From assembly GCF_000758685.1 (NCBI RefSeq), contig NZ_CP009286.1, forward strand, positions 3,316,501 through 3,380,500: 64,000 nucleotides of DNA. Direction: 5' to 3'. Source of the stretch: Paenibacillus stellifer. GTDB lineage: Bacteria; Bacillota; Bacilli; Paenibacillales; Paenibacillaceae. Positions 11,887 to 14,797 of the stretch are shown piece by piece. The notes beneath the pieces were generated by a model, which was not told where the DNA came from, ran no database searches, and saw only the letters and a program-made list of their open reading frames with translations. A program made the position numbers and the translations under genes. Position 1 is the stretch's first letter. Every line of letters begins with the position of its first letter.

Positions 11887-11983
11887 GCTTTCATTACCCC
11901 CGTTCCCCTATTCCTGATACTAATTTAACACAATACGGCGGCCCGAAGGCAAACGTATTAATTTATCCCTAATGATTCACAGG

Positions 11984-11989
11984 TATAAT
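11984..11989 (+). promoter_or_regulatory. Orphan -10 box left of the IS110 element
   Basis: TATAAT on the plus strand with no convincing -35. It points towards the phospholipase-like gene at 13817, from which the inserted IS now separates it. Confidence 0.3.
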
Positions 11990-12010
11990 GGAAGAGGAAT
12001 AACAGGATAA

Positions 12011-12017
12011 AGGAGCC
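12011..12017 (+). repeat. Left subterminal inverted repeat of the IS110 element
   Basis: AGGAGCC, the reverse complement of GGCTCCT at 13692-13698. Only seven bases match, so this is suggestive rather than proven. Confidence 0.45.
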
Positions 12018-12121
12018 ATTCCTGTAATGAATTAATCTGAGGTTTGAATGAAAAAAGCGCCTTCTGTATACTGGGAAACGTTCCGACCAAAGAACAATTT
12101 CAGCATAGGAGGCACTCTATC

Positions 12122-13417
12122 ATGAAGTATAAACAATCGAAGAAACAGAATCAACGAATCACCCGAATTTCCGAAAATACCCTCGTGGTCGGCGCAGATA
12201 TCGCCAAAGATACCCATGTGGCTCGCGCCATAGACTTTCGAGGGATCGAACTGGGTAAGGATTGTGTGTTCTCTAATACCCGTGCCGGACTCGAGCAACT
12301 GGTTCAGTGGATGAAGGAGCTTCAGCAGGAGCATGCCAAGAGTGACGTCCTCTTCGGTATTGAGCCCACCGGACACTACTGGTTTACGCTGGCGGAATAT
12401 TTAGGGCGGCAGGGCATTCCTTTGGTCATTGTGAATCCGCATCACGTACACAAAAGCAAAGAACTGGAAGACAATTCACCCACGAAAAGTGACTATAAAG
12501 ATGCCAAGGTCATTGCCGATTTGGTGCGAAACGGGAAGTACAGCGAGCCCAAACTGCCAACGAGCGTTTACGCCGACCTGCGGATTCTCATGAATCTTCG
12601 GGAGAAGATCATGGTGAACTTCGGACAGGTGCAAAGACGGGTGCAGAACTGGCTGGACCGCTTTTTTCCGGAGTACACGCAGGTGTTCAAAGACTGGGAA
12701 GGCAAGGCATCACGCATTACGCTTAGCGAGTTTCCAACGCCAGGAGAAATCGTAGAGATGGGCACAGAGGCCATTGTCCAGCGGTGGAAAAAAGACGTAA
12801 AACGAGCCGTAGGGGCGAAACGAGCGCTGCACCTCATGGAAACGGCGAGGCGTTCCATCGGGCTTACGGAAGGACTTCCCGGAGCGAAAGTGGAGATCAA
12901 GACGCTTCTGGAGCAGTATGAGATGTTCGCCAGACAACTCGAAGAGATTCTGGCCGAGGTGGAACGTCTCCTTGCTCAAATTCCGGGAACGAAAGAGATG
13001 CTTACCGTTCCGGGCGTAGCCGTAGTTACGTTGGCAGGGTTTCTCGCCGAAGTCGGGGATCTGAGCGGTTACGAGCATGGACAGCAGATTATTCGGCTCG
13101 CCGGACTAAACCTCAAGGAGAACAGTTCGGGAAAGAAAAAGGGCAAATCCAGTATTACTAAACGTGGACGCGCACGCCTAAGGGCGCTGCTGTTCCGGGC
13201 GGTGATGCCCATGGTGGCAAAGAACGCCGAGTTTAAGGCACTGCACCAGTATTTCACCAAGCGAAGTCAAAATCCGCTCAAGAAAAAGCAATCCCTTGTA
13301 GCCTTGTGTGGGAAGCTCATTCGCGTGCTTCATACGCTCGGAACCAAGCAGGTTCCGTACAACGCAAACGACGTGTTAGGGCCGGTGCGTCAGGCTCAGT
13401 TACAGATGGCAGCTTAA
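12122..13417 (+). CDS. IS110-family transposase (DEDD recombinase)
   Basis: 431-residue recombinase. The N-terminal RuvC-like domain carries the DEDD residues: D26 in VVGADIAKDTH, E81 in GIEPTGHYW, and D124/D127 in KSDYKDAKV. A coiled-coil region follows (about 265-310). The C-terminal Transposase_20 domain opens with LTVPGVAVVTLAGFLAEVG and holds the serine-containing KSSITKRGRARLRALL segment. ATG 12122 was chosen because ATAGGAGG (12106-12113) lies just upstream; an ATG at 12044 would add 26 atypical residues. The frame is intact, so the element may be active. Together with a bridge RNA such proteins recombine DNA in a programmable way. Confidence 0.9.
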   Translation: MKYKQSKKQNQRITRISENTLVVGADIAKDTHVARAIDFRGIELGKDCVFSNTRAGLEQLVQWMKELQQEHAKSDVLFGIEPTGHYWFTLAEYLGRQGIPLVIVNPHHVHKSKELEDNSPTKSDYKDAKVIADLVRNGKYSEPKLPTSVYADLRILMNLREKIMVNFGQVQRRVQNWLDRFFPEYTQVFKDWEGKASRITLSEFPTPGEIVEMGTEAIVQRWKKDVKRAVGAKRALHLMETARRSIGLTEGLPGAKVEIKTLLEQYEMFARQLEEILAEVERLLAQIPGTKEMLTVPGVAVVTLAGFLAEVGDLSGYEHGQQIIRLAGLNLKENSSGKKKGKSSITKRGRARLRALLFRAVMPMVAKNAEFKALHQYFTKRSQNPLKKKQSLVALCGKLIRVLHTLGTKQVPYNANDVLGPVRQAQLQMAA

Positions 13418-13690
13418 GCCAAACCGAATTCATGTTTACCGCCGGACCGGAATGAGCCAAGACAACGGAAGCACGGAGCAGCCGTAGGAATTATTCCATA
13501 AGGGCAACGACCCTGTAAAGGAGCAAGAAACGGCGTCCACCTTTTGAGAGGCAGAACGAAGGAATGTAAGGGCTAAGACCCAGCGTGACATGGGAGGGTA
13601 AGCCGTCAAAAGAAGGTGTGGATATCCAAGGTGCGATCAGAGGAATTATCTAAGGGTTGGAAATAATCCCCCGACCTCTATTCCCGCCAC
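13418..13690 (+). ncRNA. Candidate bridge RNA in the right-end tail of the IS110 element
   Basis: Structured non-coding tail with several hairpins: AGGG-CAACGA-CCCT near 13501, GGG-CTAAGA-CCC near 13570, a long imperfect helix between CCACCTTTTG (about 13537) and CAAAAGAAGGTGTGG (about 13606), and a terminal hairpin AGAGG/CCTCT (13639-13643, 13675-13679) with an inner ATTAT/ATAAT helix separated by an internal loop. IS110 elements encode such RNAs in a non-coding end, on the right for IS1111-type members. The assignment is inferred from position and folding, not from a model search. Confidence 0.55.
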
Positions 13691-13691
13691 C

Positions 13692-13698
13692 GGCTCCT
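13692..13698 (+). repeat. Right subterminal inverted repeat of the IS110 element
   Basis: GGCTCCT, matching the left repeat AGGAGCC in inverted orientation. Confidence 0.45.
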
Positions 13699-13816
13699 CC
13701 AGAAAATAATGTCATCCTTACATGACTTCTCCATCTCTCGATCTGTCAATGAGTGAAAATCCGAGAAAGAGTGAGTAAACAAGAGATTTTATTAATTTAT
13801 AGTGGGAGGAATCAAG

Positions 13817-14797
13817 GTGCCTAATTTGTGGATGCATATCGAGTACGGACGACAGCTTGAACGCGATCTGCAAGGCAGCCGGCTGTTCCCGGCCGCTTCG
13901 CAGCGGTGGCGGCAGCTGTACCAGTTGGGATGTCAAGGACCTGATCTGTTGTATTACTACGGTTTTCTCCCTTGGAAAAAAGACATCCAGGCCGGTCTCA
14001 TCGGCGACCTCATTCATGGCACCAACTGCGGGCCGGTCCTGATGGAGTTCTGGGACCGGGTGCTTGAACTTCCGGATGCGCAGCGGGAGCAGGCTACGGC
14101 CTACTTCGCCGGATTCGTGACGCATCATCTGCTGGACCGAAACCTCCATCCCTACATCAATTGGAAGGCGGGATACAAGTACAGGGACCATCAGCGGTTC
14201 GAAATACTGCTGGACACCGTCTTCCTCGCCTGGCTTAACGGAGAGCGTACATGGGAGCAGCCGGGCTGGAAGCAAATCGACGCAGGTCCGAAGCTGCCTT
14301 CCTCCATTATCTCTATCCTTCATGACACGACAGTCTCGCATTTCGTGGAAGCCGAAGGCTTCCCGCAGTCCGGCTGGCAGGAAGCGTACCGGGATGTGGT
14401 GCTGGCGCAGCGTCTGCTGTTCGACCCGCACGGCTGGAAGAAAAAAATCGTGCGCGGCCCGAATGCCGGACTGTTCTACCGCAAGCCGAGTCCGGCCGAG
14501 ACGAAGCTGGATGTATTGAATGAACGCAAAGCTCCCTGGCGGCATTCGGCCCTGTATTCAGAGGTCCGGACGGAGAGCGTGCCGGAGCTGTGGGAGCTGG
14601 CGCTGGCAGAGGGCCGTGCCGTTCTCGGAGCGCTCGCCGGATGGCTGTCCGCCCACAATCCCGCTGAAGCGAATAACCGGCGCGAGCATTTCCGGGGTCT
14701 CTTGGGCAACCGCTCCTATGATACCGGCAAGGACTGCGCCTCCAATCTGATCAATCAGTATGCAGAGCCGATTTGGGACACTGCGGCAAGCAGCTGA
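13817..14797 (+). CDS. Zinc-dependent phospholipase C family protein
   Basis: About 326 residues resembling the zinc-dependent phospholipase C (PF00882) family. Metal-binding histidines are visible near the start (WMHIEYGRQL), in GDLIHGTN, and in the paired FAGFVTHHLLDRNLHPY segment; ILHDTTVSHF follows. No signal peptide is seen, so it is probably intracellular, unlike the secreted toxins of the family; substrate unknown. GTG 13817 is preferred because GGGAGGA lies seven bases upstream, whereas GTG 13802 would be inside that site. The IS110 element sits directly upstream and probably removed its native promoter. Confidence 0.75.
   Translation: MPNLWMHIEYGRQLERDLQGSRLFPAASQRWRQLYQLGCQGPDLLYYYGFLPWKKDIQAGLIGDLIHGTNCGPVLMEFWDRVLELPDAQREQATAYFAGFVTHHLLDRNLHPYINWKAGYKYRDHQRFEILLDTVFLAWLNGERTWEQPGWKQIDAGPKLPSSIISILHDTTVSHFVEAEGFPQSGWQEAYRDVVLAQRLLFDPHGWKKKIVRGPNAGLFYRKPSPAETKLDVLNERKAPWRHSALYSEVRTESVPELWELALAEGRAVLGALAGWLSAHNPAEANNRREHFRGLLGNRSYDTGKDCASNLINQYAEPIWDTAASS

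Follow-up and report, generated by a model that had tools for sequence, protein, structure and literature searches.

Members of the IS110 family of insertion sequences are RNA-guided wherever this has been tested, as stated in the sections drawn on here of three papers (PMC11187229, PMC11208160, PMC11208158). In those portions of the literature that were consulted, the targets named for IS110/IS1111 elements are specific ones, namely REP elements, attC sites of integrons or a conserved stretch of another transposase gene. For the IS1111 group, excerpts of one paper give transposases of 330-350 aa and subterminal inverted repeats usually of 11-13 bp, with 7 and 3 bp extensions (PMC11187229), and excerpts of another give these repeats as 7-17 bp (PMC11208160).

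The element described here lies in a window of 64,000 nucleotides, the whole stretch of DNA analysed, within the 5.66 Mb single-contig chromosome of Paenibacillus stellifer (coordinates are those of the window, and features lie on the + strand unless stated otherwise). By its protein it is a member of the IS110 family, and it works like a bridge/seekRNA element; very probably, it is an RNA-guided element that reads a target of the Shine-Dalgarno (SD) type. A search of titles and abstract beginnings in the open-licence literature found no report of an SD-targeting IS110-family element; four papers that one of the searches brought up deal, by their titles, with RfaH/NusG and not with transposons.

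The element, its recombinase and its exact insertion

The whole element occupies 12016..13808 (1793 bp, CCATTCC...GTGGGAG), a span that includes the second copy of the AG core (13807-13808). The genome holds eight near full-length copies, window copy included, and additionally one fragment that consists of the tail alone (80%); the seven other copies each have between 3 and 9 positions that differ from the window copy. The window element is apparently intact. The boundaries can be read directly from this comparison: all eight copies span CCATTCC (12016) to GTGGGAG (13808), and the flanks beyond are unrelated. An earlier note on this DNA had set the right boundary at about 13710, which falls short, since all eight copies stay alike up to 13808. 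AAATAAT (13704-13710), which the note had read as a match in the right flank, therefore lies inside the element, and it is found in none of the eight true 60-nt right flanks.

The recombinase gene (12122..13417) encodes 431 aa from its ATG. The protein matches DEDD_Tnp_IS110 and Transposase_20 in Pfam and 'IS110 family RNA-guided transposase' in NCBIfam, and these matches, together with an alignment with IS621, reveal a DEDD RuvC-like domain and a Tnp domain with the catalytic SG. The alignment covers E60, D102/D105 and S241-G242 of IS621, the first D being outside the aligned stretch; the roles of these residues are those given in the consulted part of PMC11208158, and the matching of aligned letters to IS621 residue numbers is our own assignment. 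By homology, the recombination chemistry would be that of IS621. The transposase ATG is 106 nt from the left end, with a promoter-like TTGAAT-17-TATACT (12044..12072; consensus scan only) ahead of the gene, and the stop codon is 391 nt from the right end; no intrinsic-terminator-like site was found in 11950-13900. Comparison of end pairs identified a short subterminal repeat, AATTAAT, at the left (12030..12036) and, inverted, at the right (13791..13797, - strand), 14 and 11 bp from the element ends. Subterminal inverted repeats of 7-8 bp recur at this position in 18 of the 47 distinct end pairs, and they change in step, since AATTAAT and AAGTAAT are each present at both ends together.

The left target, TAAAGGAG (12008..12015), is identical to eight of the nine bases of the left guide described below (13515-13523), and the right target, GAATCAA (13809..13815), starts at the first base past the right end; in G089, a congeneric relative, an uninterrupted AAAGGAGGAATCAAGGTG stands instead. 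This relative is empty at three of the four sites queried (AAAGGAG/GAATCAAGGTG, TTTTAGGAG/GAAAACAAATG and AAGGGAG/GCTATATCCATG), and at all three the insertion was exact, with no bases lost or duplicated at the junction. The core is probably AG, in the window the last two bases of the left target (12014-12015), because AG is all that left targets ending in GAG and in CAG have in common with the right end GGGAG.

The noncoding tail and its target guides

The proposed bridge/seekRNA, which would be made from the element and bound by the recombinase, is encoded by the noncoding region and right end at 13418..13808, conserved among 24 aligned relatives. That the element encodes such an RNA is well supported by the fit between guides and flanks. 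The target-guide hairpin (13481..13534) is laid out as GCCGU, loop, AGGGCAACGACCCU, loop, ACGGC; its GCCGU...ACGGC stem shows compensatory changes, and both this stem and the apical AGGGCAACGACCCU stem-loop (13501-13514) are seen in the local fold. The consensus fold of the 24 sequences has 36 pairs, eight with compensatory changes (both sides changed in 14 at stem column pair 148/194), and covariation contributes little to its energy, -2.5 of -25.5 kcal/mol. The structured tail of the earlier note was not borne out for the tail as a whole, which folds no better than shuffles (z -0.15) and without the guide stem; the hairpin itself reaches z -1.3 in the local fold, with 21 of 200 shuffles equally good. 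Rfam gave no matches at gathering scores in the whole window and, in the element region with E allowed up to 5, only a single weak hit to a snoRNA. A possible donor-binding loop was picked out by eye at 13631..13684, where CUCUAUUCC (13676-13684) is similar to C[C/T]ATTCC of the left end and may pair with the donor.

Both target guides lie in the one hairpin. On its 5' side, the right guide AUUAUUCC (13490..13497), whose last C faces the core G, pairs with its own right flanks above shuffles; on its 3' side, the left guide GUAAAGGAG (13515..13523), a Shine-Dalgarno sequence, matches its own left flanks above shuffles and covaries in classes B and C (see below). The guide-target correspondence that the earlier note had supposed is thus real, but it resides here and not in a terminal hairpin, and does not run through AGAGGAAT or AAATAAT. 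The segment 13486-13504, which had been likened to the left boundary by its spacing, does belong to the guide-loop sequence, but the flank it partners is the right one and not the left one with which it was compared.

Relatives were drawn from the best 80 of 578 loci in named genomes and from matches in 22 of 60 relative genomes. Of the 127 loci collected ahead of the viral-contig scan, 18 were set aside, being cut-outs or duplicates of other loci or, in one case, the relic L017; among the 109 examined, 14 had no recognised guide hairpin and 95 were tabulated, 21 of which were left out of the tests for want of a called end, of sufficient flank or of a class A, B or C guide. The 74 insertions used (eight own, 66 in relatives) comprise 63 of class A, the eight own-genome copies all among them, two of class B and nine of class C; L043 was kept in class A with a left end that is probably miscalled, and L025, L049 and L051 have an N in a flank. 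In addition, relatives were found in 49 plasmid records, 48 of them under 60% identity, and at 21 loci in viral contigs, with the guide hairpin recognised in eight; a near-identity DNA comparison with a phage collection gave no match.

Across the 74 insertions, the fit of guides to their own flanks exceeds that to shuffled flanks and peaks in one register. For the left guide the in-register score was z 4.6 within class A (63 insertions; other six registers -1.1 to 1.6) and z 10.3 for all 74, where wrong registers reach 4.5 (z 3.1, 3.7, 4.5). For the right guide, offset 6 gave z 4.4 within class A, where the only wrong register to score is offset 7 (z 2.65; other seven offsets at most 1.2), and z 4.3 for all 74, with wrong registers at z 2.2 to 3.4. 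Wrong registers score in the pooled classes because the classes differ in composition. The right-guide signal at offset 6 persisted when each of 32 guide contexts was counted once (z 4.0, p 0.0002) and against internally shuffled flanks (z 3.2). Across right-flank positions 2 to 7 the excess pairing amounts to a modest value of about 0.05 to 0.13 at each position, and pairing with the right flank is weak past a few bases; throughout, guide variation within class A is small and the rows in the tests are related to each other.

In Paenibacillus cremeus, a distant IS110 relative (L058:4446-6225) interrupts a class A element within its guide-RNA region, splitting a conserved AACGAAG|GAATG. The hairpin of this relative (L058:5926) carries a left guide UCAACGAAG and a right guide CAUUCC, both fitting that site, and its targets may be the RNA genes of other members of the IS110 family. 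The genome of P. stellifer also holds a relic of a related element (L017:2570-2870; G000:C1 about 882570-882870), with guide region and right end and no adjoining transposase gene. Doubled right ends, as if insertion had occurred at the SD-like right end of an older element, are seen in L019:4670-4720 and L136, and in L092 a left end directly follows a right end.

Shine-Dalgarno targets, changed guides and rival explanations

The left-guide letters UAAAGGAG are a Shine-Dalgarno sequence, for which the complement in 16S rRNA is the anti-SD, and the target read by the two guides appears to be of this type, AAAGGAG|GAAT (the bar marks the insertion point; target strings AAAGGAGG and AAAGGAGGAAT). 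Class A left flanks are closed by GGAG in 58 of 63 insertions and by AAGGAG in 39, GGAG|G holds for 46 of the 63, and the viral-contig loci L128-L130 and L133 are also at AAGGAG. In the own genome, AAGGAGG-N4-9-ATG is found at 375 sites versus 108 for the reversed pattern. In 39/63 class A, 2/2 class B and 1/9 class C insertions, the core is followed at 4-14 nt by a start codon that opens at least 50 codons. The 24 class A insertions that lack one include three of the eight own-genome copies; five have it (L001, L002, L005, L006 and L007), L003 and L004 have an ATG 15 nt past the core and joined flanks that also form a 120-codon open frame, and L008 has neither. In the rest of the window, the same test is passed by 1091 of 7137 AG sites (15%), 109 of 642 GGAG, 38 of 149 AGGAG, 17 of 55 AAGGAG and 5 of 11 AAAGGAG. 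As five of 11 AAAGGAG sites pass by themselves, the motif largely explains the placement: the element follows the guide, and the guide is an SD.

The right end GTGGGAG, followed by the target G, rebuilds GGGAGG in 49 of the 63 class A insertions; in the window this rebuilt SD spans the right junction (13804..13809), 7 nt ahead of the GTG (13817) that opens the downstream frame, and would be used in translation. Given the promoter-like site and the absence of a terminator-like one in 11950-13900, read-through into the downstream gene is also possible. A rival explanation is that insertion is much less specific, and that the copies at SD sites are those that survive by virtue of the SD rebuilt by the right end; the 49 rebuilt sites speak for it, and genomes cannot separate selection from targeting. 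However, survival would not call for a guide that spells AAAGGAG, and class C elements also end in GGGAG at the right, yet rarely sit before starts (1/9); we hold this explanation to be improbable.

Lineages with changed guides sit at correspondingly changed targets, in the same register. In class B, the left guide of L073 is CATACGAG versus a flank of ACATACGAG, guide and flank of L077 are both TATACGAG, and the right guide contains CCUCC, an anti-SD string. In class C, from a Bacillus-Cytobacillus group, the left guide is GUGGGGCAG in seven of nine insertions and the left flank GGGGCAG in six (L086, L087, L088, L093, L094, L096), with related letters in L083, L084 and L095; right flanks are mostly TTTAGTTG variants, and that of L093 is exactly complementary to the right guide over 8 nt. 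In a tree of 59 transposases, from which L077 was left out, class C forms a single clade, and two changes are needed to account for class B and four for class A, with deep placement unsure because long branches meet (L097 with class C). The element recurs in other Bacillota. Class A guides are present in Paenibacillaceae, Alicyclobacillaceae, Clostridiaceae, Bacillaceae and one Mycoplasmatota bin and, by guide letters alone, in Peptococcaceae. Three guide classes with matching genomic niches in one transposase lineage amount to a natural reprogramming experiment.

Some further loci extend this picture of guide variation. A guide CATACGAG/TATACGAG with a CCUCC right guide is found in L073, L077 and L082 (the last from the guide alone), and L073 and L082 are on separate tree branches, as if the cut point had shifted twice within an SD. 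A distant group, at 39-46% identity (e.g. L108, L110, L111, L113, L115, L116, L118, L123-L125, L127), has other loop letters. In Neobacillus (L178, G123:C1:2797500-2804500), the class C target repeat, a AACGGGGCAG-type imperfect palindrome, occurs nine times in 7 kb and separates short ORFs, the five of at least 100 aa all on one strand, in what looks like a cassette array.

With GGAG at the end of 58 of the 63 class A left flanks, only a short part of the target is invariant, and the recombinase protein itself could read it, the strings in the tail being coincidental or serving another purpose. Against this, wherever the loop letters changed (L073, L077 and the nine class C insertions) the flanks changed too, in the same register, and the family is RNA-guided wherever tested, in the consulted sections of the papers cited above; a protein reading GGAG is thus given little credence. 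That the guides lie in the terminal hairpin (13639-13679), as first proposed, is scarcely credible: the quoted letters are present at 11993-12000 and 13704-13710, but the second match is inside the element and the first, AGAGGAAT, occurs in one of eight left flanks, at chance level (the tail shares 0 to 3 8-mers with each of 16 flanks of 60 nt, and the maximum of 3 is not in the window's flank), so both are refuted, although the donor loop may yet lie in the hairpin region. In the relative, the empty version of the window site has a changed AGAGGAAT string. For AGAGGAAT and AAATAAT, other copies carry the same tail beside unrelated flanks, which the earlier note had itself named as telling against its proposal; this is not the case for the guides at 13490-13497 and 13515-13523, because the copies share a short GGAG|G-type target.

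According to the preferred reading, that of an RNA-guided element reading an SD-type target, the recombinase would work with a bridge/seekRNA-type RNA from the noncoding stretch between stop codon and right end, in which one hairpin presents the right guide (13490-13497) and the left guide (13515-13523), together reading AAAGGAG|GAAT. The element would insert after the AG core without loss or duplication, its + strand always in the SD sense, and as the right end supplies GTGGGAG, the downstream gene would usually keep a GGGAGG ahead of its start. A wider proposal, the chances of which we judge to be evenly balanced, is that a long-lived RNA-guided transposon lineage has adopted a translation-start signal as its guide, homes to the SDs of many genes and rebuilds the signal from its own right end, thus spreading at gene starts while the downstream gene is still translated much as before and can be reached by read-through transcription that starts in the element. 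As the guide is a functional motif ahead of many genes, target choice and gene expression would be linked by the guide itself, which suggests a route by which such an element may reach several copies with little damage.

Comparison with known systems

The noncoding region carries guides for both target strands, as judged by sequence fit in permutation tests. The position of the RNA, downstream, and the order of the guides, with the top-strand guide 5' of the bottom-strand guide, are IS1111-like; the 5'-3' guide order of IS621 is the reverse of that of the window element. A reverse order is also described for ISEc21 (consulted part of PMC11187229). The earlier note was right about an IS110-type element with a target-guiding RNA downstream of the transposase, but its IS1111 label does not fit cleanly, because the protein is too long (431 aa, against 330-350 aa for that group) and the subterminal repeats are short, 7-8 bp in 18 of 47 end pairs. 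These repeats agree with the 7-17 bp definition (PMC11208160) and not with 11-13 bp or with 7 and 3 bp extensions (PMC11187229), as worded in the excerpts used. The element does not fit the IS110 group in the narrow sense either, in which the noncoding region is upstream of the transposase; the guide hairpin here is downstream.

As far as the sections consulted of PMC11187229 describe them, the IS1111-group seekRNA elements ISEc11, ISPa11 and ISKpn4 resemble the window element in having the noncoding region downstream of the transposase, a top-strand-pairing guide 5' of the bottom-strand-pairing guide in one hairpin, a target that is not duplicated, and natural redirection via changed guides; the window element differs from them in its protein of 431 aa, its repeats of 7-8 bp at 14 and 11 bp from the ends, and its SD-type target. 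With IS621, as covered by the parts drawn on of PMC11208160 and PMC11208158, it shares an IS110-family recombinase with DEDD and SG motifs and the guiding of both target strands by guides that overlap at a dinucleotide core, whereas IS110-group RNAs are mostly upstream, in the left end, and IS621 targets REP elements. In protein length, the window element resembles the IS110 subgroup with transposases of 395-455 aa and, in its downstream noncoding region, the exceptional members of the IS110 family that have one (both from excerpts of PMC11187229).
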